DNA of 64,000 nt from positions 21,903 through 85,902 of the forward strand of contig CASHSZ010000030.1 in assembly GCA_949358305.1 (NCBI GenBank), given 5' to 3'. Shown piece after piece: positions 1 to 40,900 of this stretch; the stretch's first letter is position 1, and each line of letters starts with the position of its first letter. Origin of the DNA: Strigamia acuminata. Its lineage: Eukaryota; Arthropoda; Chilopoda; Geophilomorpha; Linotaeniidae. A model generated the notes under the pieces. It ran no database searches, was not told the DNA's origin, and saw only the letters and a program-made list of their open reading frames with translations. A program made the translations under genes and the position numbers.

Positions 1-1014
1 TTACGAATTTCAAGGTTGAATGGCATTGCATGTCACACTGCTTTGAAAAGAGTAGTACCAAAAGCTCTTATAGATCGAGCTGAGAAATGGTTTTATTCTA
101 AACAATTTCAAAACTGGAATCACTTTGTAGAGGAATTCATGACTGAATATGGGGAGTCAAGTGAAGACTTACTACAAATGTGGGATAATCTTTCTCAAAA
201 TAAAGGCGAAAGTCTTCGCTCTTATTTAAGAAGGACTGAGGATTTATTGGTCACTCTCCCTTATACAATGGGAGATGCAGCCATTGATCGTCAATTCCGA
301 CGTGGATTGACAGATTATTCAAAAAATGTTCTACTTTCAGTACGAGCACCTTATCCGGGTGGTTTCGCTGAATTAGCCAAATTTATGCGAGCCAATCAAA
401 TAAGGATTGACGAAAATTATAAAGCTTATCTACCAGCTGATGAAAAAGTTGCGTACGCTAAGCGACAGCAACGGAGAAAGGAATTAGCAAAAGACACACG
501 CTTTGCTAACACCCCTCTTTTGCAACCCCCAAAACGAGGAGATTTTTTGGCAGAGACTGCTAAGGAATCTAAAAAGGGATCGGATGGGAAAAATCCACAT
601 CCAACCCCTAAAGCTCACTTAGCCGAAGTGACTGAAATGGAAACTGCTTCTGAACCAGAGAAATCTGACTCGGAACCAGAAAGCGAGGCTGCAGCTGCTT
701 TATTAGCCCGTAATAACGCAGTAGCTCGAAAATTTGGACCAAAGATGGCGCCTAAAAACGTTACTTTTGGTTCACCAAAGACAGACGCGCTCAGTAGATC
801 GAAGTCGCCGACCCCTAAAAAGGACGAAGCCAAACGTTCAAGTTCGCCTTCGCCAAAAGTCGCGAAATCGCCTGCTACTGACCCGTGTAATATTTGTAAA
901 AAATTGGGACATTGGGCTAAAGAATGTCCTGATAGGAAATCGAGCAAAGACAAGATCATTGAGGAGTTCGAAAAATCGATGAAATCAATCGGCGAGCTTC
1001 TAAAAAACTTGTAA
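1..1014 (+). CDS. gag: Gag polyprotein of Ty3/Gypsy element (5' partial)
   Basis: The reading frame is open from base 1, so the true start lies upstream and the TTG near 16 is not a start. The first ~130 residues look like a retrotransposon Gag capsid, with a WxxL/YxxRTE-type region around 'SLRSYLRRTEDLL'. A charged Lys/Ser/Pro/Glu-rich linker follows. A single zinc knuckle (C-x2-C-x4-H-x4-C) sits at residues 296-309, counting from base 1. The protein packages element RNA into particles. The stop is the TAA at 1012-1014, three codons after a slippery heptamer. Gag and Pol therefore appear to be made from one message by -1 frameshifting. Confidence 0.85.
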   Translation, partial: LRISRLNGIACHTALKRVVPKALIDRAEKWFYSKQFQNWNHFVEEFMTEYGESSEDLLQMWDNLSQNKGESLRSYLRRTEDLLVTLPYTMGDAAIDRQFRRGLTDYSKNVLLSVRAPYPGGFAELAKFMRANQIRIDENYKAYLPADEKVAYAKRQQRRKELAKDTRFANTPLLQPPKRGDFLAETAKESKKGSDGKNPHPTPKAHLAEVTEMETASEPEKSDSEPESEAAAALLARNNAVARKFGPKMAPKNVTFGSPKTDALSRSKSPTPKKDEAKRSSSPSPKVAKSPATDPCNICKKLGHWAKECPDRKSSKDKIIEEFEKSMKSIGELLKNL

Positions 1015-1053
1015 GCGCGCATCCAGACGGTCTAGTGGATGCGACGCCTACCG
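1002..1053 (+). promoter_or_regulatory. Programmed -1 ribosomal frameshift signal (gag-pol)
   Basis: The heptamer A AAA AAC is at 1002-1008 in the correct gag phase (codons AAA at 1003, AAC at 1006). After a 9-nt spacer comes a perfect 7-bp stem, CGCATCC (1018-1024) with GGATGCG (1037-1043). Loop bases CGGT (1028-1031) can pair with ACCG (1050-1053), allowing an H-type pseudoknot. The pol frame is open from 963, so a -1 slip enters pol just before the gag stop. The arrangement matches known retroviral -1 sites; activity is inferred. Confidence 0.75.
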
Positions 1054-4000
1054 CCTCGGAAAATGAACTAACACCATCTCAGATTTTAGATGAATTTTTA
1101 AATACCCAGATTAAATTAGAATTAGAAAATAATTTAGTATTTCCAAAAATTGATGTTTCCAGTTTAAGGCTTGTGCTGCAAAATGAAAACATCACTGAAG
1201 AATTTTTTAAAGAAAAAGTTCAACAAATAAAAGTTGATTGGGAATCTAAAATAAAAGATGCTGTTACTTTACTAGATGGAAAAGCTAGGCCCACACCTGA
1301 AATTGTTGAAAGGTCAGGTAAAATTGATTTACCTGGTCTTGATGAATGCATTGAAAAATTAATGGCTACAACGCTAGTCACTAATGATTTATTGGACGAA
1401 TTACCATTGGATCCGCCAATAGAAATTAAGCCACCGCGACGTTTTAAATGCAAGTACGCGGACATACCAAACAGCAATGATTTGCCGACGATTCGATTGC
1501 AGACGGCAAACGGTATGATAACAGGGATGTTAGACTCTGGAGCTAATCGAAGCTTCATGGCCTACTCCGTAGTAATTTCGCTGAAACTGGAAGATGAAAT
1601 TCGACCAATAGGACCGGATGTGAGAGTTACGACTGCTTCAGAAGATGTAGTCCCTGAAGGGACTCTCCTACTTTCTTTTGCATGGACACACGGGATGTTA
1701 AGTCATCCATTCATAATTTTAAGAAATAAATATCCTATTATTTTATTAGGATGTGATTTCATGAATCGACTCAATATTCAACCAAATCCTAAGACCATGT
1801 CTTGGAATTTTGTCAAGTCTTTGAAAGAAGATTTACCTTTTGTTCCTCAAGCGATTCTTGATCGTTATCAAGAGTTTCTTGATCCACCCGAAGAAATCAT
1901 GAAACGCGACTTTATTAAAGCAAATCACATGAAAGCTGGTTCCGCCACTGCATGTCAAGCTAAAGTTGCCGATGAAGAAAATATAGTACAAAGACTTGTT
2001 AGCGACGCTAATTTGTCAATGGAAAATAATTTAATGCTTGAAAAAGTATTAAAGAAACATGAAAAGATTTTATCACGCCGACCAGGTAGAACACACCTCG
2101 TTAGGCATGAAATTAAACTGGACACTAAAGTTCCGATTAGAGTTCCGTTTAAAAGCGTAAATCCACAGAAACGTGAAATTATCCGTCAAATCTGTCAAGA
2201 TATGTTGGATAATGGGTACGTTGAACAAGCCACTGGAGACTATGGGATGCGAATAGTTCTAGTGATGCGTCCGGATTGTGATCCAAGACTCTGCATTGAT
2301 TTTAGACCACTCAATGCACATACATTATACGACCCTCCTCAAATGCCCAGCATTGAGGAAATCTTGCGAGAACTCGGAAGGTTTGAATGGGTCACAACAA
2401 TAGATTTGTCAAAAGGCTATTGGCAGATAGAGGTTCATCCGAACGACCGTGCTAAAACTGCATTTTGGAGCCCTTTGGGTCGACTACAATTTCGAGTCAT
2501 GCCCTTTGGTCTCGTAAATGCGCCGTCAACTTTCCAGAAGTTAATAGAAAAAATTTTGGGGGACGCCTATCGAAAATTTGCATGGGCATACCTCGATGAT
2601 ATAATCATTATATCTAAAAATTTTGAAGAACACATGATTCATCTGGAAGAAATTCTGAGTAAACTTGAAAATGCAAATCTTCATGTTCATCCAGAAAAAT
2701 CGAAATTTGGCAGAAAAGAATTAACTTTTCTTGGTTACAAGTTAAGTGTTCAAGGAGTTAGTGTCGACCCTAAAAAAGTCGCCGCCATTAAAGAAATGCC
2801 AGCTCCTTCAAATTTGAAAGAGTTGCAAAGGTTTTTGGGAATGGTGAACTTTTTTCACCGATTACTTAAAAATCTGGCAGTAATGACAGAACCTCTACGT
2901 CCTTTACTCAAAAAGGATGTGGAATTTATTTGGTCAGAAATTCATCAAGAAGCTTTTGATCAAATAAAAGATGCTTTAACGAATGCAGAAACAATGGCCA
3001 TGCCTGATTTGACAGAACCATTTATTGTGCATACCGACGCCAGCAGAAAAGGACTAGGCGCCGCGCTTATGCAAATGAGAGAAATCGATGATCAAAATAT
3101 CGAAGTGCCTTGTGTTTATGCCAGCAGAAGTTTACAACCTGCTGAGATAAATTACAGCGCCACAGAATTGGAGTGCCTAGCGGTAATCTGGGCATTACGT
3201 AAATTTCGACATTATTTGGAATTTACAACATTCATAGTAAGGACTGACCATCAAGCATTAAAATGGTTGATGCAGTTGGACGAACCTGCTGGAAGGTTAG
3301 CGCGTTGGCAAATGGAGCTAATGCGCTACTCTTTCGAAATACAATATATTAAAGGTCCACTAAATGTTTTAGCGGATGCTTTATCCAGATCACCGATTGA
3401 TAAACCAGAAAATCCTGAAGATGATGGAGATAATGACGAATTATTATCTTACTGTCCATCACCACAACGAAAATGGAAAATGGGAAAATTCCATGAGCTT
3501 CCTGTCTCCACATTAGAGGAAAAGGAAGATCATGAATTCGTCAACTATTGGACTAAAATTTATGACTCCTCTGAGGAATCAGATGACGTCATAAGAGCGC
3601 AAATTTCAAGGAAATTCCAAGTTCCTTCGTCAAATGTTTTAATAAAAGCATTTGTCGCCAAAATTGTAGAACGTCTTGATTGTGAACCTCCCACAAGGGA
3701 AGACATAATCAAGGCCCAAAAAGAAGATAAAGTTTGCCAATTGATGCGTAATTTTTTAAATTGTAATCAATTTCCGCCTGACGTCACAACGCGACTCCAG
3801 AGGAAACAATATAGAAAACACGCAACCACCTTCTTAATTGAAGATGACTTATTAATGCAATTTCATCCCACAATGTCTGATGAATTGGGGGAGGATGGGA
3901 GAGCACTCAAAGTTTTTGTACCTCAGACATTGAAGTATAAAATTATTTGGCTGATGCATGGCCACCCACTTTCTGGCCACCCAGGAATTGCAAGGACTCT

Positions 4001-4220
4001 TTATCGAGCACGCCGAATTTATACCTGGAAAGGCATGAAATCGGACATTACGAGATTCATTCGACATTGTGAGCGTTGTCAAGCTTGCAAACCTCGAACG
4101 AAAGGACAAATTGAAGCAGCGCAAATGGGTCCTTACAGCCCATTTGACTGTCTAAGTGTTGATTTGACCGGCCCAAAACCTCGGACGCGCAAAAACAACA
4201 CATATTTTAGTCATACTTGA
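1005..4220 (+). CDS. pol: Pol polyprotein: protease, reverse transcriptase, RNase H, N-terminal integrase
   Basis: Entered from gag by -1 frameshift; there is no ATG near the front. With residue 1 at 1035, an aspartic-protease LDSG motif has its Asp at 167. The reverse transcriptase YLDD motif is at 519-522, preceded by a conserved 'MPFGLVNAPSTFQ' block. RNase H follows with 'HTDAS' (Asp 668) and 'RTDHQAL'. The integrase zinc-binding H-H-C-C region and the first catalytic Asp ('SVDLTG') come last. The frame stops at 4218-4220 inside the integrase core, while the matching downstream integrase sequence continues in another frame from 4204. The encoded enzymes copy element RNA and insert the cDNA. 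Confidence 0.9.
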   Translation, partial: KLVSAHPDGLVDATPTASENELTPSQILDEFLNTQIKLELENNLVFPKIDVSSLRLVLQNENITEEFFKEKVQQIKVDWESKIKDAVTLLDGKARPTPEIVERSGKIDLPGLDECIEKLMATTLVTNDLLDELPLDPPIEIKPPRRFKCKYADIPNSNDLPTIRLQTANGMITGMLDSGANRSFMAYSVVISLKLEDEIRPIGPDVRVTTASEDVVPEGTLLLSFAWTHGMLSHPFIILRNKYPIILLGCDFMNRLNIQPNPKTMSWNFVKSLKEDLPFVPQAILDRYQEFLDPPEEIMKRDFIKANHMKAGSATACQAKVADEENIVQRLVSDANLSMENNLMLEKVLKKHEKILSRRPGRTHLVRHEIKLDTKVPIRVPFKSVNPQKREIIRQICQDMLDNGYVEQATGDYGMRIVLVMRPDCDPRLCIDFRPLNAHTLYDPPQMPSIEEILRELGRFEWVTTIDLSKGYWQIEVHPNDRAKTAFWSPLGRLQFRVMPFGLVNAPSTFQKLIEKILGDAYRKFAWAYLDDIIIISKNFEEHMIHLEEILSKLENANLHVHPEKSKFGRKELTFLGYKLSVQGVSVDPKKVAAIKEMPAPSNLKELQRFLGMVNFFHRLLKNLAVMTEPLRPLLKKDVEFIWSEIHQEAFDQIKDALTNAETMAMPDLTEPFIVHTDASRKGLGAALMQMREIDDQNIEVPCVYASRSLQPAEINYSATELECLAVIWALRKFRHYLEFTTFIVRTDHQALKWLMQLDEPAGRLARWQMELMRYSFEIQYIKGPLNVLADALSRSPIDKPENPEDDGDNDELLSYCPSPQRKWKMGKFHELPVSTLEEKEDHEFVNYWTKIYDSSEESDDVIRAQISRKFQVPSSNVLIKAFVAKIVERLDCEPPTREDIIKAQKEDKVCQLMRNFLNCNQFPPDVTTRLQRKQYRKHATTFLIEDDLLMQFHPTMSDELGEDGRALKVFVPQTLKYKIIWLMHGHPLSGHPGIARTLYRARRIYTWKGMKSDITRFIRHCERCQACKPRTKGQIEAAQMGPYSPFDCLSVDLTGPKPRTRKNNTYFSHT

Positions 4221-5481
4221 TGTGGCAACTCATTGGCCAGAATTATATCCAATGTGTAACCCCACTGCTGGAAAAGTAGCAAATTGCATTTATCACCTTT
4301 CCATGAGCATGGGATTCCCTCGTAAAATTATTTCTGACAACGGCCCGCAATTTCGTGCCCAAGTCTTTAAAAAATTTTGTGAAAAGTTCAAGATGGTTCC
4401 AACACCAACTTCAACGTATCACCCACAAGCTAACCCGGTTGAAAGGGTTAACCGTGACATCAAATATTTGGTTGCAATTTATTCATCTGTTCATTCCAAA
4501 TGGGACGAATATTTGCGTGAATTTGCATTTAGTTTGAGAACTACGGTGACGAGAGGAAGAGACTTCTCTCCCGCATTTCTTAACTTTTTTCGCGAACTCA
4601 GAGTACCTTGGGATCCAAGAATACCTGAAGGAATTTTGGTCGTAGATCCAAAAAACCCACATTTATACGTGCAAAAATTAGAAGCCGTTATCGCCGAAAC
4701 ATATCAGCACATGATGTCGCACGTGTTAGATTTGCGTAGACGAGTTAATCTTAAAAAAGAAGGTGAGAAGTTCTCCAATTTTAAATTAAACGATTTAGTT
4801 TGGAGAGATTCTCATGTTTTGTCGAGCGCTGCCCGCGGCATTGCAGCTGGCATCGCTGATAAAAGAACAGGACCTTATGTAATAACCAAAGTATTACAGG
4901 GAGGTTCAGTAGAATTGAGAAAGCTAGAAAATAACGAAATATTTCCAGCTGTCCATTCGTCTGAATTAACTCCGTATTTCCCGAGTTTCGACCAGGAAGT
5001 ATGGTTAGAAGGCGAAGAAGTCGGTCAAAAGACTGAAAATATAATTAATACGTTAGATGACGATGAATTAAAGAAAATACCTGTCGATAATTCATCCAAA
5101 CCACAAATGGAGTCAGACCTCGTGAATAACGACGTTGAACTTCGTGACAGTTTCAAAAAGCTTGAAATTGCTAAAAAAATAAATAAAAAGGTGTTTTTAG
5201 AAAAGAAACAAAAAACATCTGAAATAAAAGACTCATCTGACTCAGTCTCCGATGACAATGGAGACGGCGATTTAAATACAATAAATCCCTCGCCGACAAA
5301 GAGATATAATCTTCGGACTCGTAAACCGAGAGGAAAAAACAACATGTGTCTTCTCCCCTCGATAACCTCGAGATCCAGGGATCAGCCGTATGACGTAAGG
5401 AGCAATTCCTCAAGCCATACTCAAACCAATCAAACAGTAAGATTGGATGACGTCACTAACAGCGACGTTACCCAAACGTAA
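4204..5481 (+). CDS. Integrase core and C-terminal part of Pol, out of frame with upstream pol
   Basis: From 4204 this frame resumes the integrase core exactly where the upstream frame loses it. The second catalytic Asp lies in 'SDNGPQF' and the Glu in 'NPVERVNR', with the conserved 'YHPQ' between them. A chromodomain-less tail follows, ending in a charged Ser/Asp-rich stretch and a 'YNLRTRK' patch. A net +1 frame change (one extra base or two missing) near 4200-4204, in an AT-rich run, separates it from the DDE first Asp. A mutation in this copy is the simplest explanation. A sequencing error or a second recoding site is possible but unsupported. Confidence 0.85.
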   Translation: MLVILDVATHWPELYPMCNPTAGKVANCIYHLSMSMGFPRKIISDNGPQFRAQVFKKFCEKFKMVPTPTSTYHPQANPVERVNRDIKYLVAIYSSVHSKWDEYLREFAFSLRTTVTRGRDFSPAFLNFFRELRVPWDPRIPEGILVVDPKNPHLYVQKLEAVIAETYQHMMSHVLDLRRRVNLKKEGEKFSNFKLNDLVWRDSHVLSSAARGIAAGIADKRTGPYVITKVLQGGSVELRKLENNEIFPAVHSSELTPYFPSFDQEVWLEGEEVGQKTENIINTLDDDELKKIPVDNSSKPQMESDLVNNDVELRDSFKKLEIAKKINKKVFLEKKQKTSEIKDSSDSVSDDNGDGDLNTINPSPTKRYNLRTRKPRGKNNMCLLPSITSRSRDQPYDVRSNSSSHTQTNQTVRLDDVTNSDVTQT

Positions 5482-5691: not shown

Positions 5692-8529
5692 ATGGAAGGA
5701 GAGGAACCGAAAGAAGGAAGCGAAGCCGGCGCCAACAGCCTCGAATTAGAAACAAATTCGACGCTGCTTGGTTCCGCAAACACTTCGAATGCATCCGTGG
5801 ATGTCACCGAAGAGTCCGCCGAAGCGTCCGCTGAAGCTCAAGCCGCTCTAGCCGACGCTGCTGCCCGTTTGCCAGTCACGCCGTCTCAGCCCCGACTTCG
5901 AGGAGGCCTATTCGCCGATCCAAACGGCGAAACTCGTGCACAGAGACACGACCGGGTAAATAATTTAAAATAAAATTACCTTTCAGTCATGAAAAGTAAT
6001 TAAAAGTGCATTTTCACTCCGAAAAAGCAAAAAGTTCGTTGGTAACGCCTTCGCAAGAAGACGCCGCCATTATTATCATCAGATGGCGCTGTGTCTCATT
6101 TTTGAGGCGTTGCTACGGTAACGCTCCAAACACTGAAACATAGCCGTCGGAAACAACGTTTTTTACGATTTTTCAAATATTTTGAAAAAATTTAATGAAT
6201 CTAAACTGTCGAATGAAATCTCACCCGTGATTTTATTCACTGAAAATTCGGAAATAATTATTTTACACGAAAAAATGGATTTTAATTATTTCTTCGAATA
6301 TTTTTACAGATTATCCAGCTTCGGGAGACGCATCTCGAACTACACCCCGATGTTCCGACCGCTCCTGGTGTCTGGCGACACGCATTGCCGCCAGAAATCA
6401 TAAAGTCGAAAGGACGACTGACGTTTTGGGCGGCCCGACACAAATTCTCCAAGGCCTTAAACAAGCGATGGGGAACGAAGTTTCGGATCGCCTATTTAAT
6501 CGATGGATTCGGTCATCGCGACGCCCTCGAGTGGGCAATGAAGCGCGACACCTTCGGACCACTGCGAAACGTGTTGCTCGACTTCGCCTTCACAGTGATC
6601 GCACAAGAAACGCGAGACCATCGCCGTTACTTCAACGCTCCTGCGTGGGAGCGTCGACAGATTTTGGAGGACATTTTCCAACGCTTGGATCAAACCAAGG
6701 CCGAGGTTGTACGCCTCTACAACGAATCTTTCCGTGTAACAACGGACGGAAAGAAACGTTGGGTGCCGACATGCCAGTCGGAGATGCATCAACTAGCCAT
6801 GGGCGGATGTTTCCATGCAGATTTCGTGCCGAACCCGTATCCAGAGCCTGAGCCCCGGGTACAGGTCGCTTCCACCATCCACGTGGTGCCACCGCGCTCC
6901 ACGTCGAGGTCACGATCATCGAGGTCGCCCTACAGTGGCCGTCGCTCCTCCCCAACACAGTCGTCGGGGGAAGGCGCCATTGGAGGGTTACCTCCACTCC
7001 AGAAGGCTCGTCATCGCTCACATCACCGACGCGAGCCGACGCCGCCGAAAAGACATTCGAAGTCCGTATCGAGACCCACATCCCGAAGCCGACCTCGAGT
7101 GCAATCGCGTCAATCTTCCACGAGGAGTTCACTCTCGTCGCGTGAAGAACGATCCAACGCTTCACAGCTTACCGCTTCCTCCTCCGGCCGGATTGACTGG
7201 TCGGACGAGATAGCGAAGGAAGATCAACGCATCGCCGCATTGCAAGCCGGTCAGGGAGACGTTAACACCTCTTTGCCGTTCGCTTGCCGTCCAGTCACCA
7301 GCGACATGCGACCAGATCCATCGGTGCCCGTGCCACAAGTGACATCGGTCATCCGTTTTGAGGGATACGTCTCTCACGAACCATTTCCCGCACAGGAGTG
7401 CGCTGATCTCTGGAGGCGATTCTCATCGTTTCCCGAGACAGCCCAAACGATGTACCTCGCGCATCTGGACGAATACCAACTCGCTCAGATCCGCGAAGGT
7501 GAGAAGGAATGGCAATGGCTTGCGCGAGAGCTTACGTCGTGCAAGTCCGACAAGCAACTGCAACGGACGCTGCAGAAGATGAACAGGAAGTTGTCGGAGG
7601 GACTTCTTCGAATCCTGTTCCAAGGAGTCTTTCCCGACCCACAGATTGCTCTGGCCGCCGCCACTCGATTGTGGACCGTGCCGCTAGGGCTTCCACGAGC
7701 CTTGCTGGACGATTGGGAGTCAGTTCGCCCCGATCCTCCAACGATGCTCGCCGAATTGACGCAACAAGCCGAGGCGACTGGCGAAACTCCGGCTGGATCC
7801 GCCATTCGACTACGGCAGGAATGGGCTGCGCTGAAGCAGCGACGCACAGCAGAACGAGCCACCGCCCGTCCCGCTGGCGCACCACCGTCATCCGCAGCTC
7901 CACTCCACGCTGCCATCACGGCAACGTCGAGTGTTTCCCGTGCGACCGAGGCACCGAGTTGCAACATCTCGTCTCCGATGGAATGGCTCGACAGCGACGA
8001 TCGCGAGTTCGTCGTGCCTGTGGCCTGCGGTGCCAGACCAAAGACGCGCACCCCGGCTTTACGCAGATCCAGATCCCTCTCGATCTGCAAGAAGTCGCCG
8101 CCACCGCCGCCTCCTCCAAAGGATTCGCCGCCAAGAGATAGGGGATCGAGTATGGCCACCCACCTCACCGCCTATCAACGTTTGCGCTCATTATACGCCT
8201 TTTGCTACATAACGAGCGCAACGAAAACGATTCTCCAGAACAGCGAGGATTTATGCAACCGAGTCCTCGCGTGGCTGGAAAACCACATCAAGGAACAGCA
8301 GCCGTGGATCCTGCATCAACGCCTGGTGTTCGCTCGAATTACGCCTCAAGACCCGCAGGAGTACTTCGAGATGGGTTTTGGACGAAGGGATGGTGTGGAC
8401 CGCATCAAGCAAGTGTGGCTCCACATCAACCCTGGCTTCCGGTCAGGACCAAACGCCGGCCGACCTTTGTGCACCGTCACCGAGCACAAAGATCCAAACG
8501 ATCATTCGACGGACATGTTGCCGAAATAA
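5692..8529 (+). CDS. Spliced third ORF of the element, unknown function
   Basis: Two exons, 5692-5955 and 6310-8529, join in phase 0 across an intron with GT at 5956 and TTTACAG at 6303-6309. The product is 827 aa. The N-terminus is acidic and Ala/Ser/Glu-rich. The middle (about residues 100-260) is folded-looking and Trp/Arg/Phe-rich. An Arg/Ser-rich stretch ('RSTSRSRSSRSPYS'), an alpha-helical domain with many Leu/Arg, a Pro-rich run and a final helical domain follow. No membrane segment or signal peptide is visible, so it does not look like an envelope protein. I recognise no family. GC content is far above that of pol, which suggests a different origin or different selection. AATAAA signals follow at 8583 and 8593. 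Confidence 0.65.
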
Positions 8530-8687
8530 TTAGGGAACACGCCCGTTTATTAAAAATGATTCCTTTTTTATTTTTATATTGTAATAAAAAAGAATAAATA
8601 TATATCCTGTTCCATTTTACTTTGAAACCTTGTGTATTTATTCCTATACTTACCTGTCTCTTTTTGGAAAAGAATAAGATTCTTTCT

Positions 8688-8703
8688 TAAAAGGGGGGGG
8701 AAG
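8688..8703 (+). other. Polypurine tract before the LTR
   Basis: A purine run ending in eight Gs and AAG directly precedes a TGTGGTG start. LTR retrotransposons prime plus-strand DNA synthesis from such a tract immediately upstream of the 3' LTR. Confidence 0.65.
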
Positions 8704-8805
8704 TGTGGTGACCTCAAATATTCCTATTTGAGTGCGCACCATATTTCCAAATTGTCTTATAAACATATTCAACAAACTTATATGTTTTGTTTCAATGTAA
8801 ATTGA

Positions 8806-8866
8806 AATAAAACATACATTAATAAAATATAAAACAAGACACAATATTACCCAAATAATATTGTGT
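8806..8866 (+). promoter_or_regulatory. Poly(A) signal plus hairpin in the LTR
   Basis: AATAAA at 8806-8811 is followed by a perfect 10-bp inverted repeat, ACACAATATT (8839-8848) with AATATTGTGT (8857-8866), and an 8-nt loop. This resembles the hairpin next to the polyadenylation site in some retroviral R regions. The role is inferred. Confidence 0.4.
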
Positions 8867-9241
8867 TTTGCAGCAAGTTTTGGCCCAGCAACAGCGTCAA
8901 CCAATCGCGCTGCAGCGTGCATTGCTTTGATGATGCTGCTAGGCGTGTGCCTGGGCGGAGCATCCCTTCCCCTCGCGCGTGCCCGGCTCGATTGTTGCAC
9001 ACGACCCGAAGGCGGCCGTGTGTGATCTTCATGCAACTCGTCATCTGCGCAGCTTTTCTGAGCAGATTTAGAAGTGAGCCAAACGGTTTTGGCCCACTCT
9101 TCCCGCACTCTTGATTCCACCTCCAAACTGTTCACAACCGTGTCAAACTTCTGCCAAAACTGCAAAGTGTGATCTGTGATTCTTGGACGAATTGAGTTTC
9201 ATCGCTGGTCTGTACCCACTGTACGGAATAGCAACTTTCTA

Positions 9242-9496
9242 GCTTGAATTACTACGAGTAATTTAAGCCATTTCTGTGTGTGAAACTAACATCGAGTTTA
9301 CTCTGTTAGTTTGAAGGCTTTGTGTCGAGTTTAACTCCACAAGGCGAATTGTGTTAAGACGGATTGTTACGTCGAGCTTGCTCCGTAATAATCAAATCGC
9401 TGTGTGCAAGACGTATTCTCGTGTTGAGCTTGCTCCGCGAGGATTTTTAGTATATTTTAGCAAAGTATTTTAGCGTCGAGTTTACTCCGCTAAAAT
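9242..9496 (+). promoter_or_regulatory. Array of six RNA stem-loops, five sharing a bulge and apical loop
   Basis: Five hairpins at 9283-9312, 9317-9345, 9362-9393, 9415-9444 and 9467-9496 each have an 8-10 bp stem. A 5'-side 2-nt bulge (TC, once TT), an apical GAG/CTC stem and a YTTR loop (TTTAA in the second) follow in every one. The five long stems differ in sequence but each pairs with itself, and the fifth is a perfect 9 bp. A sixth hairpin at 9242-9268 (12 bp, loop ACG) leads the array. All five non-Watson-Crick pairs in the six stems are G-U when read on the plus strand. That points to a structure selected in plus-strand RNA, probably the element's 5' leader. Confidence 0.7.
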
Positions 9497-9783
9497 CCCG
9501 CGCTCACACGACGCCATCGACGCCATTTTGGAGCCAACGGTCAACTGTGAGTGTCCAAGTACGAAGAGAAACCAGATCGACCCAGTCATTACACTTATTA
9601 TTTCGCATTATATTCGGGTGTATTTAAAACGATTAAAACAATCTAATTTTTCCTTTACTCTGTGTAAAATCATTCCCCTAGACAACCATTTGGCCACAGA
9701 GTAGAAGTCCTGTACGGCATCTCACCGACGATTGCTTATTAAATTTATATAATTTAATAAGTAAAAACCCGGATCGCCGCACA

Positions 9784-10258
9784 ATGGCGAATTGAGAGAA
9801 ATTTGCCATTGGGACTGCTTTTGGACGGAATAAGGTTGAAATTCGCCATTCGTCCGAATGGCCAGATTCGCCCTTGGAACGGCACCCCCTTTTCCTGCGT
9901 TGCGTCGCTTACTTCAACTTGGAGTTGAAGCAGGAATTGGCGTCAACGTCAAGAATTTTTGGACGCAACCAGCTTGCGTTGCGTCAGGGTAAACCTAGCT
10001 TTAGTAGTGAAATGGAGCAGTTGGAGGACTAGAAATCTTTGTCTGTCTGACTTCTTTGAGATTGATTCCATTCCTGGGGCAGGATACGGAACAGAACCTT
10101 TCCTGAAAAGTAAAATTCAGTTTTTCACTTTTGTAGAAACTTAATAATTGTAATAGCATTGTTCAGAAAAATATTGAAAAAAAAATATATATATACCTGT
10201 GTATTCTAAAATTTAGCACAAAAATTAAACAAAGACTTTTTCTCCTTGTTCACACCAG
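9784..10258 (+). other. Non-coding, several short hairpins; probable upstream intron of the DUF229 gene
   Basis: No convincing ORF. Short inverted repeats occur, for example CTTCAACT/AGTTGAAG near 9912 and GACGCAAC/GTTGCGTC near 9962. The 3' part (10200-10258) is pyrimidine-rich and ends in CACACCAG, the acceptor for the next exon. I could not find the preceding exon of the gene here. Confidence 0.4.
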
Positions 10259-11689
10259 ATAAAACCAGACGTGGAAAAACGCTGTGACGAGAAATTCGAA
10301 AAATGGAGCCAAAAAACCAAAAATCTAATACGAGAAAGACTAAGCGTGACAATTGTCGGAATAGACTCGACGTCACGTCTCAACTTGATCCGCCAAATGC
10401 CCAACACATACAACTTGCTAAAAAACAACACCAACACAATCGAGTTACAAGGCTTCGTTAAAGTGGCCGACAACACATTAGTTAACGTAATACCACTGCT
10501 AACAGGACTTTACGCCGAGGAATGTTGGAACGAAACATTGCAGTCACCATTTGACTACTTAAACATCATCTGGAAGAACTTCAGTGACAAAGGTTACCGA
10601 ACATTTTACGCGGAAGACTATCCATACATTACAGGATTCAACTACAAAAAGCGAGGTTTCTACAAACAACCAACAGATTACTACATGAGACCGTTCCACT
10701 TGGCAGTCGATGACTCAAATGTTAATAAGGTGGAGCCGAATTGCCACAATAACCGGCCGGAAGTAAACGTCACTCTGCAATGGTTGATGGATTTCTTAAC
10801 GACTTTTAAGACAAAGCCCACGTTTGCCTTTCTGTTCTTCTCACGCTTGACCCATGATGGTATTAACGATGGAAGCCAAGGCGATCATTTGTACCACGAT
10901 TTCCATCGAGAATACGGCAGAAGCCTTCTCGACCGCAACTCCATTCTGGTAACCTTCAGTGATCACAGAACCCGCTTCGGCGAAATCCGGAACACAATTA
11001 TAGGAAAGCTGGAAGAAAGGATGCCCTTTGTTTTCCTCACATTCCCTCCGTGGTTCCGGGAGAAATATCCCAAACTGTGGCGAAATCTTCGAGTCAACCA
11101 GAACAGATTGACCACTTTCTTCGACTTGCACGAAACGCTCAGACAAATCCTCGGCTTTACGGGCGTAGACGTAGAAGCGGACGTCCGCAATCGGGCATTA
11201 AGCCTCTTCTCGGAGATTCCCCCGGAACGAACTTGCGAGGATGCCACCATCTTGCCTCATTGGTGCACTTGCAACGAGAAGAAAGCGGTGGCGCTCACCG
11301 ATCCCCGAGTTCTAAATTCGGCGCAATTGATGGTCGCGGAAATCAATAAAGAGTTGTCCGGTCAGGAGAAATGTGCACGTTTGTCGGTGGACGAGATTCG
11401 GGATGCTCGAGCGAGCGGATTCAGAGAGGAAATCTTACGGTTTCAAAGCAGCGTGAATGATGTGATTGATCGCAAGGTGATATACGGCGACAAATTGCCA
11501 AGTGTGTGGGAATTTCTCGTGACAATTTTGGTGAAACCGAGCGGTGCAGTTTTCGAGGGCACGGTTACGTATTTTGAGGCTACGGACAAGTATGCGTTAT
11601 CCGGAGATGTCAGCAGAATTAACGTGTATGGAAATCAATCGCATTGTGTTACCGGTCCGCATTTGAAGAAATATTGTTACTGCATTTAG
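10259..11689 (+). CDS. DUF229 family protein, 3' exon (N-terminus missing)
   Basis: An exon starting after the acceptor at 10257-10258 stays open to the TAG at 11689, about 476 codons. The sequence matches the DUF229 family (alkaline-phosphatase superfamily fold). The motif 'IGIDSTSRLN' carries the presumed Ser/Thr nucleophile, and 'QMPNTYNLL', 'DNTLVNVIPLLTG', 'YAEDYPYITGFNY' and 'THDGINDG' follow. The usual metal-binding SDHG reads SDHR here. The C-terminus ends in a Cys-rich 'KKYCYCI'. The family is common in insects and nematodes, and its members are probably secreted or luminal. Upstream exons were not found; the retrotransposon occupies the upstream DNA. The gene may be 5' truncated or may have a very long first intron. 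Confidence 0.8.
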   Translation: MKPDVEKRCDEKFEKWSQKTKNLIRERLSVTIVGIDSTSRLNLIRQMPNTYNLLKNNTNTIELQGFVKVADNTLVNVIPLLTGLYAEECWNETLQSPFDYLNIIWKNFSDKGYRTFYAEDYPYITGFNYKKRGFYKQPTDYYMRPFHLAVDDSNVNKVEPNCHNNRPEVNVTLQWLMDFLTTFKTKPTFAFLFFSRLTHDGINDGSQGDHLYHDFHREYGRSLLDRNSILVTFSDHRTRFGEIRNTIIGKLEERMPFVFLTFPPWFREKYPKLWRNLRVNQNRLTTFFDLHETLRQILGFTGVDVEADVRNRALSLFSEIPPERTCEDATILPHWCTCNEKKAVALTDPRVLNSAQLMVAEINKELSGQEKCARLSVDEIRDARASGFREEILRFQSSVNDVIDRKVIYGDKLPSVWEFLVTILVKPSGAVFEGTVTYFEATDKYALSGDVSRINVYGNQSHCVTGPHLKKYCYCI

Positions 11690-21600: not shown

Positions 21601-23408
21601 TGAAAATACACAATTGCATTTCTTGTAATCAAATTGAATAAACATCAGCCACGAGACCATTTGTCAACTCCGAGTGCAAACACTGCATACAAATTGCGTC
21701 GTTTTTTTCGTGCCGATAGATAAAATGAAGATTATGTTAATATTGTTAAAGCAAACAGCATTAAGCAAATCATGTGCATTTAGAGATTTTCTTGATCGAC
21801 CAAACGAGCTGGGAATATTTCATTACATCGCTGTGGAAAGCGGTGTCTTGTTCCGTGCTTGATTGGATCAACTTATATGAGCCTGAGAAAACCTCTTTAA
21901 AGAGAAATTTGCACCAAAAATCGTATATTAAATGGCGGGTTGGTAAAAAGGGGTAGGGAATTTAGTGGCTTGTGAATATTACACCACGGTACGTGGAGAA
22001 TTGCAAACTTAACGTCCTGGTGAAGAGTTTGAATGAGCTTTTGAGCTCGATTTGCAAGATTACAATTTTTGTGTGTTGGATTTGGAGAAGAGATGGACAT
22101 TTTGCTTTTTAGAAAATGAAAAAAAATGATATTTCAATTTTGTTTTGTTTTGTGTTAGTAGAGTTGGAATTGACGCAGACTGGTAGAGTAATGAGATTAA
22201 ATAATTGTGTTGCATTGCAGCAAAGCCAAAGATGAAATGGCAGGCGGAGAATTTTTTTTTTTTTTTTTTTGCTTGTAATTTTAGACGAATGGATATTGAG
22301 ATATTATGTTTAGAAAACTGTGCGTTTTATAAGACGTAGAAGAAAAAAATAGAAAGTTTTGAAGAATTAGAAAATAGGAATTTATATGAAACAAAAGAAA
22401 ATGAGAATTTCGTAAAATTGTAATATAGAAAATTGAAGAAAAATGAGAAAAATGGATCAAAATGAGAAAATTGAAGAAAAATGAGAAAAATGGATCAAAA
22501 TGAGAAAATTGAAGAAAAATGAGAAAAATGGATCAAAATGAGAAAATTAGAGCAAAATGGATCAAAATGAGAAAATTAAAGAAAAACGGATCAAAATGAG
22601 AAAATTAAAGAAAAATGGATCAAAATAAGAAAATTAGTGAAAAATTAAAGAAAAACGGATCAAAATGAGAAAATTAAAGAAAAATGGATCAAAATAAGAA
22701 AATTAGTGAAAAATTAGAGAAGTGAAAATTGGAGAAAAATGAAAAAACTGGAGAAAGATTAGAAAAGAGAAAATTAGAGAAATAATAGAAAATTGGAGAA
22801 ATTAGAAATTGAAAAGTTAGAGAAAAATTAGAAATTGGAAAGTTAGAGAAAAATTAGAAATTGAAAAGTTAGAGAAATATTAGAGAAGTGAAAATTGGAG
22901 AGAAATGAGAAAACTGGAGAAAAATTAGAAAAGAGAAATTTAGAGAAAAAATAGAAAATAGAAAATTGGAGAAATTAGAAATTGAAAAGTTAGAGAAAAA
23001 TTAGAACATAGAAAATTGAAGAAAGATGAGAAAATAGAAAATTGGAGAAAAATGAGAAAATAGAAAATTGGAGAAATTTGAAAATAGAAAATGTGAGAAA
23101 TTTGAAAATAGAATAAAATTTTGAAAATATTGAAAAATGGAAATTGATAACATCAAAATACTGATAAAAAAAATAAAATAAAAAAAACGATAAAAAATAA
23201 ATAAAAAAACAATAAAAATATTCAATTAATTTACCTGACAACAAAAATAGCAGCAATGATGACGATACAGCCGCAAACACTACAAATCGCTATAACTTTC
23301 CAATCAGGTTTCGAAATGCATATCTCCCCTTCAAATCCGCAAGGAGGAATGCTGGATGGCGGTTTGTCTCCAATCCAATGAATGGGAAAAGTTAAATCGA
23401 ATTCCTAA

Positions 23409-37985: not shown

Positions 37986-40900
37986 ACAATAAAAACACAA
38001 CAAACACTTAGTTCCACTGCCTTGTGGCAGTTACTACTGTCTCCATTTGAACTTTTCTTTATAATAAGCAAAAACTGACAAATCCGACAAAAAGCCATCA
38101 GTTACACGTTGTAAATCCCGGAATTCGAGTGCAGTTAAAACGAAAGTTTAAACGAGTTGTCGCGGTCAAATGTGTTTATCAATTTGTGCAAAAGAAGTAT
38201 TTCCAAATAGATATTTACACTTCAAACTTGCAGTGATTTTGCAACATTTAATCATTTTGATTAAGTTTGTAGGTTTTCTCATGTTTACATCAAGCAAGCT
38301 CCCTTGAGTATACACCATGAAGGCCGAAAACTGTAGCGAGAATTGAATTTTCACTCACATTGACACGAGTCAATGTTGATGTTTCGCCAAATCCAGGATA
38401 ACCGCCTGTGTCTCATTGATAATCCCAACTTCGATTATATCGGCACAAACCTTAAACCCCAGGGCAGAAAAAAAAATAGGCCAATTCGGTCTACGAAGTT
38501 CGAACTTTACTTCTAACCTAGAATATCTATGTGCATCTTTGCCCACTAATGTAAATCTCTGAACACATTGCTGTAAAATTGGTGTACAGGGTGAGGCACC
38601 TAAGGTGACATTTTTAAATAAAAGCAAAACAAAGCATTTGATTAAAAAATGATTCAGAGAAAAGTTGTTTGGTTTCCAGCAGGCAAAGAGTATTATCTAT
38701 TTTTCAATTGGTTGATGCCTTGAAGGTCATTCCAGGGTCAACTCCATATACCTCACCCTGTATATACCCTGTATTTATGCATACATAAATGTTGCGTCTT
38801 TAGACCTGCTGACTCGTTTCATGTGTTCAGTTTAACCTAAACTGAGCAGACTTTGCTATATTATGACCTTGTGTAGTTTAAGCGGGTCTGGTGCCGCCAT
38901 GTTAGTTTCAGTTGAGAGAGCACTTATAATCGGCCCAAGTCAGCAGAAAATCATGGTTTGGGGTGATTACTTGCTTAGTTGCTTATTTGATGAAATAATT
39001 ATTCTCGGGATTGGTTGAATCCAGTCACATGACACATCAAGTAATCGACCAATCAAAGTAATCAAAGTAATCAACTAATCGCTCATTTAATGAAACCCCT
39101 TAATCTCACGAACGATGAACGTACGCTTAGTTCATGACGTTCAGACTTTGTTTGTTACATTAAACAAATGTGAGAAATGAAAAACCGAAATTGTAATTGC
39201 TGACAAAAATGGCAGTTTTGAATGAGAGCCGCGGCTTTTAATCGATAAAATACAGTAATTTAACACAAACCCAACGCAACTTTTCAATTGATTTCTTCTG
39301 ATCTTGTGCCTGAAATCAAAAGCTGTATGTTATGTGAAGATTGTGAACACATTTCACTGCTTTTGCAGAAATATCTTCAAATCAAACAGATAAAAAATGA
39401 TAAAAGGTGTGATTCTCAAGTTGTTTTTTGTGTGCCAGTTTAAGATTTTAATGAGCCAAAAGTGCAATCGGGGAGTTCAGTGCCAAATGAATGACCTTTT
39501 TTATCACAATTTGTGCCTGCTAGAAAAAAGTTCCAACTGTTTCCAAGATCAAAGTTCAAGATAACATCACAGCCCAGGAAAGAATAAAAAAAAAAACTTT
39601 CTTCCACATTTAACTAATTAAACAGAAAGCCAGTCCAATTTACGTTTCTGGAAAAAAAGCTCAATTCTATTGGCTGGCATCAAATTAATAAAATTTTATC
39701 TCTTTTAGCATGCAAACATCAAGCGGTGATGAAGTTGGACGGGAAACATGCGTCATGTTTAATTCATACACTGAAATTAGATCAATATAAATCAATCTTA
39801 TGCAGGGCTGGATTAAGGCTACAGGGATCCTAAAGCACTTACGACAGGGGACCCAAGAATCAGAAATAGATTTATACGTTCTCACATCTCACAGTTCTTG
39901 AAGGAGAAGGGTCCTATGCCGCTCTGGGGGCCCCTTGATTCCAAAATAAAAGTTTTCGCTCAATAAAAATTAAAATTGGTTGAGAGATGCATTGAAATAC
40001 ATTGATGAAAATCTTCATTTCGTCAACTTTGCTAAAAACGGATAAGGTTAGGTCTGGAGGGTCAAAGGGGTCTACGACTCCCCCTTGTAAGAAAAAAAAA
40101 ACTAAAACCTCGAGAACATCAAATTTGAGAAAACTTACATCGAGGAAACGAATCGACATCAATAGATCTCAACCAATCACAGTGCGTCATTAAAATAGTA
40201 CGTTCATCTCAATACTTGTACAACATTTGGTGTCTTTAAATTGCAACAAAATTTCCAGAGGAGAGGAAAAGATGAGTTTGCAATGACCCTTCTTCGGCCC
40301 AATGCGCCCTCTCAAAGCCTTTAGCTGGCAGAGAAATCAATATATAATTAAGAGCAATACTCTTCCAATTCAATTTCAATATTTAGTCAGAGTAGTTCAG
40401 TGACACACTCCCAAGTGTTTATTTCATTAAAAAAATCCTACTAACTGATCATTTCTTAATTGCAAACCCAATGTTGATTCATGCAGATTATTAAATCGTG
40501 GAATTAATCATCCAGTTTTCTTCAAATAAGTGTCATCAACACTCCTCTCTCTCTTTCCCATTTTAACTTGTTGCAACAGGGAATGACTTTGACCTTACAA
40601 GACAAGATATTGATTGTTGTGTGCCCTTTCTTTTCAACAACAAACAGAATTTTTCAATTGTTGTCTTATTGGTAAATTTAAAAATCAAAAACTTTACAAA
40701 TTTTTTTATGACAATCTGTAGACGTAGGACTATGTCACTACTCTTTCTCCACACAAGGTAAAAGAAACCCAGGCGATGCACATAGGAAACAATGCAACGG
40801 AAACTCAAACAATGGTCGATCACAGCGCAATCCTTTGGAAGTAGTTCTGCGTTGCGGCACAGTTTTCTACACGATATCATTTTGGGTCACATTTTTTTAG

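Follow-up and report, generated by a model that had tools for sequence, protein, structure and literature searches.

The 3′ long terminal repeat (LTR) of a Ty3/gypsy-type retrotransposon in the centipede Strigamia acuminata encodes a tandem array of five small hairpins, each of which presents the same core on a stem of its own. Comparison with diverged copies in the genome makes it near certain that the structure of this array is maintained in the sense RNA. The fixed and free positions of the core match, as far as sequence can tell, the published requirements of the arginine sandwich motifs in HIV TAR and 7SK, which is an agreement and not a proof. Positions given below refer to the window, i.e., the whole stretch of 64,000 nucleotides that was analyzed.

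Five hairpins with one core

A sequence-only reading of the window had described five stem-loops inside an LTR. All five were found where it had placed them within 9283–9496 (Table 1), with the 5′ bulge TC (TT in the fourth hairpin), GAG, the loop, and CTC, and the array does lie in the 3′ LTR. The stated absence of A-C mismatches from the five window stems was also correct, as these contain four G-U pairs and no A-C. The loop had been written as YTTR; this sequence pattern is there, but its Y and R are paired and close a loop of two nucleotides.

Table 1. Coordinates of the retrotransposon and of the hairpins in its 3′ LTR
Feature	Position	Strand	Description
5′ LTR of same element	C41:18855–19931		beyond the left edge of the window
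gag, C-terminal part	16–1014	+	Retrotrans_gag PF03732; CCHC zinc knuckle PF00098 (Pfam)
pol (RT, RNase H, integrase)	1035–5481	+	two open frames, 1035–4220 and 4222–5481; Pfam PF00078, PF17917, PF17921
ORF3	6385–8529	+	714 aa; env position; Arg/Ser-rich at about residues 170–260; no Pfam match
3′ LTR	8704–9780	+	1,077 bp, TG...CA, flanking CAAT duplication; purine tract 8689–8703 immediately 5′ of the LTR
Hairpin 1	9283–9312	+	9 bp, UC bulge, UUUA loop; 39.6 bits (model R1)
Hairpin 2	9317–9345	+	8 bp, UC bulge, 5-nt UUUAA loop; 35.8 bits (model R1)
Hairpin 3	9362–9393	+	10 bp, UC bulge, CUUG loop; 41.2 bits (model R1)
Hairpin 4	9415–9444	+	9 bp, UU bulge, CUUG loop; 39.1 bits (model R1)
Hairpin 5	9467–9496	+	9 bp, UC bulge, UUUA loop; 42.8 bits (model R1)

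A loose descriptor (stem of ≥6 bp, 5′ bulge of 0–4 nt, GAG-N3..6-CTC) had six matches on both strands of the 64 kb, namely the five array hairpins and a minus-strand stem-loop at 40362 whose bulge is AA and whose loop reads TATTG. The strict descriptor (TY bulge, GAG-Y..R-CTC) retrieved exactly the five array hairpins from the window and nothing from 100 Markov-1 simulated windows. Folded singly, each hairpin took the described shape (z-scores of −2.8 to −4.7 against shuffles). When 9240–9540 was folded as one RNA, hairpins 1, 3, 4, and 5 formed in the minimum-energy and centroid structures, and hairpin 2 was missing. For hairpin 5, the sole hairpin so compared, the minus strand folds well too (−11.5 kcal/mol vs. 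−10.2 kcal/mol for the plus strand), so that folding energy alone cannot pick the strand. No Rfam family matched the array at E ≤ 1 in a search over 8500–10300; the one match in this region, on the minus strand at 8586–8647, was far under the gathering score. The fold of 9240–9540 also contained an extra hairpin (12 bp, 3-nt loop) directly before the array at 9242–9268.

The host element

The array is hosted by a young, recently active LTR retrotransposon of the Ty3/gypsy type with multiple copies in the genome. Its LTRs, the gag CCHC motif, the order RT–RNase H–integrase, and the short target duplication are those of this group. The 5′ and 3′ LTR loci are 99.9% identical over 1,082 bp (blastn); the single mismatch lies, by our own reading, at the edge and outside TG...CA, and between TG and CA both LTRs are identical. 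In the integrase part of pol, H2C2 scored above its Pfam cut-off and the integrase core rve (E = 4e-5) under its own. The pol frame of the window copy is broken within the integrase region at 4220–4222. Of 8,000 candidates scored against pol, 498 were related at E ≤ 0.001; fish, bees, moths, and green algae are among the sources named in the 120 matches listed. For ORF3, none of 7,999 scored candidates was a homologue at E ≤ 0.001. ORF3 is probably joined via splicing to an upstream exon near 5700–5950; this layout of upstream exon plus intron (region 5700–6345) recalls Cer1 CERV. The gag ATG is located 94 nt downstream of the 5′ LTR, and the N part of Gag contains a basic stretch (residues 368–381).

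Both TATAAA boxes of the LTR (8758 and 8828) are upstream of the array, and further signals are AATAAA at 8806 and 8821 and ATTAAA at 9632 and 9738. If the RNA is initiated close to the TATA boxes and terminated close to the last of these signals, the array would be present at both RNA ends. With a working AATAAA at 8806–8821 it would be confined to the 5′ leader, and it could also be part of U3 and hence occur at the 3′ end of the RNA only.

Copies across the genome

A 301-bp query yielded 263 candidates; all of the 40 that were scored matched, 25 of them at full score including the window copy. The bare core GAGYTTRCTC occurs 2,588 times in the genome, compared to 1,975 times for a reversed control. 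Two cores at set distances were found 34 times in one pattern set (control, 1) and 125 times in a wider set (control, 0), and cores 13–20 nt apart were not found in the search. Single cores are frequent by chance, whereas paired cores are not. At least five listed places among the 125 core pairs look unrelated by sequence, namely four entries at C1:50046851–50046935, a palindromic repeat, and one at C6:7920841. None of the 15 inspected places (L001–L008, L052–L058) out of 100 listed with a single core has an array-type hairpin; one of them (L006) contains an unrelated GAG-CATGT-CTC hairpin with a different bulge. In viral contigs, 109 stretches fit the two-core pattern, and since none of the 80 loci examined has a strict-descriptor hairpin, these matches were taken as chance. 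At one locus (L051, C1:1784238–1784283) two array hairpins stand alone and are followed by unrelated sequence; the LTR may be truncated here, or the motif may serve separately.

Compensatory changes in the stems

Base pairs were counted in 33 array rows (32 distinct) for 40 pairs defined on the window array; pairing was not demanded, and kinship among the copies was ignored. This count and the allele frequencies given below exclude the seven-hairpin locus L050, the truncated L051, a second family described below, and loci L059–L088 except L062 and L070, and 19 rows (L111–L129) were picked by hand from the core-pair lists as diverged. Standard pairs made up 96.3% of the 1,242 cells in the 32 distinct arrays, compared to 90.8% in shuffles and 38–49% with slid partners. 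Cells with a double change numbered 86, against 28 in shuffles (shuffle maximum 45). Changes on both sides affected 14 of the 40 pairs (shuffle mean 10.4, maximum 15), which is a weak measure because some shuffles reach 14. The proposal of the sequence-only reading that the stems are kept by compensation thus held: compensated changes are many, and only 3.7% of the 1,242 cells are non-standard. Of the contrary results it had named for other copies, uncompensated stem changes do occur but are few, and the core, instead of being lost, is nearly fixed. The 32 arrays contained 93 G-U and 14 A-C cells (133 and 62, respectively, in shuffles). This stronger avoidance of A-C indicates that it is the sense strand which acts as RNA.

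An earlier set of 14 hairpins (13 distinct) from the first diverged copies had all 156 of 156 cells paired and 8 of 12 pairs changed on both sides between hairpins; it had been selected by a scan demanding pairing and is biased accordingly, and the 32-array count is the fairer one. Hairpin 1 exists across copies in two stem versions that are two compensated pairs apart, the loop changing alongside from UUUA to CUUG, and in hairpin 5 the inner pairs alternate.

A near-fixed core

The core reads R-[UN]-GAG-Y-NU-R-CUC. Its mean minor-allele frequency is 0.019, compared to 0.128 in the stems and 0.213 in the spacers. The least biased count takes 19 arrays that were found through a core pair within hairpins 1–3 and considers their hairpins 4 and 5. 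In these, the first bulge base is U in 37/38 cases, U occupies the third loop position in 38/38, and each GAG base is kept in 18/19 or 19/19. The bulge-loop motif, which had been claimed to be conserved, is near-fixed even in these two hairpins that were not used to find the copies. The second bulge base is free (C, U, G, or A), both in the 19 arrays and in a wider catalogue of 77 distinct hairpins (158 instances, 35 loci). Most of this catalogue was found by patterns demanding the core, and its counts are therefore biased: a purine under the bulge, U as first bulge base, and GAG occur in 77/77 and CUC in 75/77. The pair under the bulge is G-C in 49, A-U in 20, and G-U in six hairpins and unpaired in two, and the base two below the bulge is a pyrimidine in 77/77. 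At the loop ends, Y and R combine as C-G (47), U-A (28), and U-G (2) but never as C-A. Because they covary, we regard Y-R as a fourth pair above GAG, closing over two loop bases.

Array size ranges from two to seven hairpins. Seven are carried by a subfamily of the first family, in which relatives of hairpins 1 and 2 appear twice, and loci with three or four hairpins are decayed or partly cut. Two such hairpins, on stems unrelated to those of the window, occur in a second repeat family (L083, L089, L091, L092, and fragments). This family is probably LTR-derived, as suggested by a weak match of L083 to the U5 end of the window LTR (nhmmer, E = 0.022). Apart from this, nhmmer matched the window LTR only to a minus-strand segment of L091 that does not include its hairpins (E = 1.5e-4), and the short matches given by blastn lay for the most part in the core; the two sequences appear to have little in common beyond the hairpin core. 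Searched with model R1 of the first family, second-family hairpins gave E-values of 8e-5 to 0.08; in L083 and L091, the match was limited to the core of a single hairpin. At E ≤ 1 the model found nothing in the relatives L095 and L102, and it had no match in the 15 single-core loci. As L083, L089, L091, and L092 had been found by their core, the match to R1 tests their stems only in part. Among 18 regions related to the second family, six hold the core with at most one mismatch and 12 lack it at that threshold; five of the six (L093, L095, L100, L102, L106) show pairing at 6 or more of 10 outward positions, and the sixth (L110) at three. At the fourth pair, the majority of second-family stems contain a C-A mismatch, and this counts against a perfect stem there. 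In L083, L089, L092, L093, L100, and L106, where this C-A is found, the opposite strand would read G-U. The occurrence of the core in this stem-distinct family shows that it has been conserved over a long time.

A candidate arginine sandwich site

In HIV TAR, A27-U38 is joined in a triple by U23, the first base of the bulge, and Tat binding is abrogated by U23C and U23A, whereas C24 and U25 play an ancillary part; binding is also abolished when either G26-C39 or G28-C37 is flipped, and in one co-crystal an extra arginine contacts G21, two bases under the bulge (these points are from excerpts of PMC11885821). In evolved TAR binders, arginines read G26, G28, and G36 (excerpt of PMC7864049). 7SK contains several sandwich sites, and the floor of the classical ones is the base of the Watson-Crick pair that precedes the bulge (excerpt of PMC6189040). 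In the array, the sequence places the bulge U under a G-C and an A-U available for a triple, and the pair under the bulge, with its 5′ purine in all 77 distinct hairpins, could provide the floor. An arginine sandwich site is a plausible interpretation of the core.

Like TAR of HIV-1 and HIV-2, the hairpins are encoded by an LTR and have a 5′ pyrimidine bulge starting with U, followed by G-C, A-U, and G-C; a bulge of two bases is the natural form in HIV-2 (excerpt of PMC11885821). Unlike TAR, the array is tandem, has a pyrimidine at the position of G21, and belongs to a Ty3/gypsy element instead of a lentivirus. Its loop Y-NU-R has two unpaired bases in place of the TAR hexaloop, and because the hexaloop is absent we do not file the array as TAR. 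No Tat family is among the Pfam matches of the five window ORFs, in which basic stretches occur only in Gag and ORF3. With stem-loop 1 of 7SK the array shares the presence of several sandwich-type sites in one RNA and the Watson-Crick floor pair (excerpt of PMC6189040). The 7SK sites are packed in one helical turn, whereas the array has one site per separate hairpin, and its sequence permits only the U.A-U form.

We infer the triple, the arginine binding, the partner protein, and the step that is served, and propose the following model. The LTR would supply one or both ends of the sense RNA of the element with tandem small hairpins, which display the same core (purine, U-first 2-nt bulge, G-C, A-U, G-C, Y-R, NU loop) on a swappable stem. 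The bulge U would make a major-groove U.A-U triple, and, as in TAR and 7SK, an arginine could stack there against the Hoogsteen edges of the G bases. Repetition of this site two to seven times would allow high-avidity docking of an arginine-rich protein, and the likeliest reader would be encoded by the element, either the basic stretch of Gag or ORF3, and would mark unspliced genomic RNA for export or packaging. Such a role of the tandem array as multivalent docking site for an arginine-rich, most likely element-encoded protein in the export or packaging of genomic RNA is quite possible, if somewhat short of probable. That a gypsy element has evolved both a TAR-type arginine sandwich array and its own arginine-rich reader independently of lentiviruses, as a system like Tat/TAR or Rev/RRE, is a more doubtful proposition. 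Two points count against the sandwich interpretation in particular: the likeness of the upper helix is that of a short motif spotted after the fact, and the G21 contact of TAR would have no counterpart in hairpins with a pyrimidine at this position in 77/77 cases. Moreover, the fixed loop U is not required by arginine binding at the bulge and implies a further contact.

Alternative explanations

This loop U, which is as fixed as the bulge U, would fit a packaging or nucleation signal that is read through loop and bulge by the zinc knuckle of Gag (NC) without any arginine sandwich. Gag does possess a CCHC knuckle, and retroviral leaders commonly contain several Gag-binding hairpins in a row. 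However, NC usually reads an exposed loop G, whereas the loops of the array are NU and their purine is paired, and we regard this explanation as unlikely.

The hairpins might instead mimic 7SK and bring HEXIM/P-TEFb or another arginine-rich host protein to nascent LTR transcripts, thereby controlling elongation without a reader from the element. The logic of the core is common to the sandwich motifs of TAR and 7SK, HEXIM-like sequence is present at two places in the host genome (E = 1.6e-42 and 7e-15, both above cut-off), and a conserved host reader would explain why two distant repeat families have kept the core. Yet five to seven copies are more than one elongation factor seems to need, and the apical loop has two bases instead of the TAR hexaloop. 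Capture of a host elongation factor therefore seems improbable to us.

A repeated near-fixed motif within a non-coding stretch could also be the site of some other host RNA-binding protein that steers the stability, localization, or translation of a long LTR leader. We know of no host reader for this motif, the array matched no Rfam family in the search described above, and we rate this option as distinctly improbable. Even less can be said for repeated palindromes that are bound as DNA by a transcription factor. GAGYTTRCTC itself is near-palindromic, and LTR elements can carry arrays of DNA sites, the gypsy insulator being one example, but a DNA site accounts neither for the maintenance of unrelated stem sequences by compensation nor for the stronger avoidance of A-C than of G-U or the one-sided bulge, and this reading is highly improbable. 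Repeated copying of a single hairpin by chance or duplication, without selection, has next to no probability: the hairpins are probably of common ancestry, as the doubled relatives of hairpins 1 and 2 in the seven-hairpin subfamily illustrate, but the low minor-allele frequency of the core relative to stems and spacers argues against it, and so does compensation, unless relatedness of the copies explains the covariation.

Relation to known systems

For docking of an element-encoded protein in RNA export or packaging, a similar layout is that of Cer1, a gypsy/Ty3 element of C. elegans. Its spliced env-position ORF is unlike env, and CERV is needed for the export of unspliced genomic RNA (excerpt of PMC10309623). 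Both elements have an ORF in env position that does not resemble env; in contrast to the element described here, no hairpin array is mentioned for Cer1 in that excerpt, and ORF3 is without a detectable homologue. Cer1 shows that such a division of labor exists in gypsy elements, the likeness seen here being one of layout.

Retroviral constitutive transport elements and packaging signals are also structured protein sites on genomic RNA, with motifs that differ from that of the array. To our knowledge, little has been described on structured regulatory RNAs of LTR retrotransposons, and we judge natural covariation sets with a near-fixed core to be rare. In the open-licence literature we found no paper that links the arginine sandwich motif to retrotransposons, and judging from titles and opening abstract lines, the array is not described in the open-licence papers listed on TAR- or Tat-like retrotransposons, LTR and leader hairpins, centipede elements, and Metaviridae with TAR terms. 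It is likewise not mentioned in the excerpts of the Strigamia genome paper (PMC4244043) and of a review-like LTR study (PMC3601003).

A single genome thus offers several hundred core copies above control and a sharply defined core, for which the TAR literature predicts the effects of point mutations. If the arginine interpretation is true, the mode of recognition seen in HIV TAR and 7SK would have arisen anew in an invertebrate element, and the copies would represent a natural library for arginine-RNA recognition. If, in addition, the reader is encoded by the element, cis-trans control like that of Tat/TAR or Rev/RRE would exist outside vertebrate retroviruses. The array is a concrete way into the question of how such elements export or package their unspliced RNA.

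Further features of the window

A DUF229 (sulfatase-like) gene at 10271–11689 adjoins the insertion. DUF229 had at first suggested a nematode host, but the gene product shares 70% identity with a protein of Strigamia maritima, which makes a geophilomorph centipede the probable host. At 22692–23136 there are two blocks of a 26-bp tandem repeat in diverged form.
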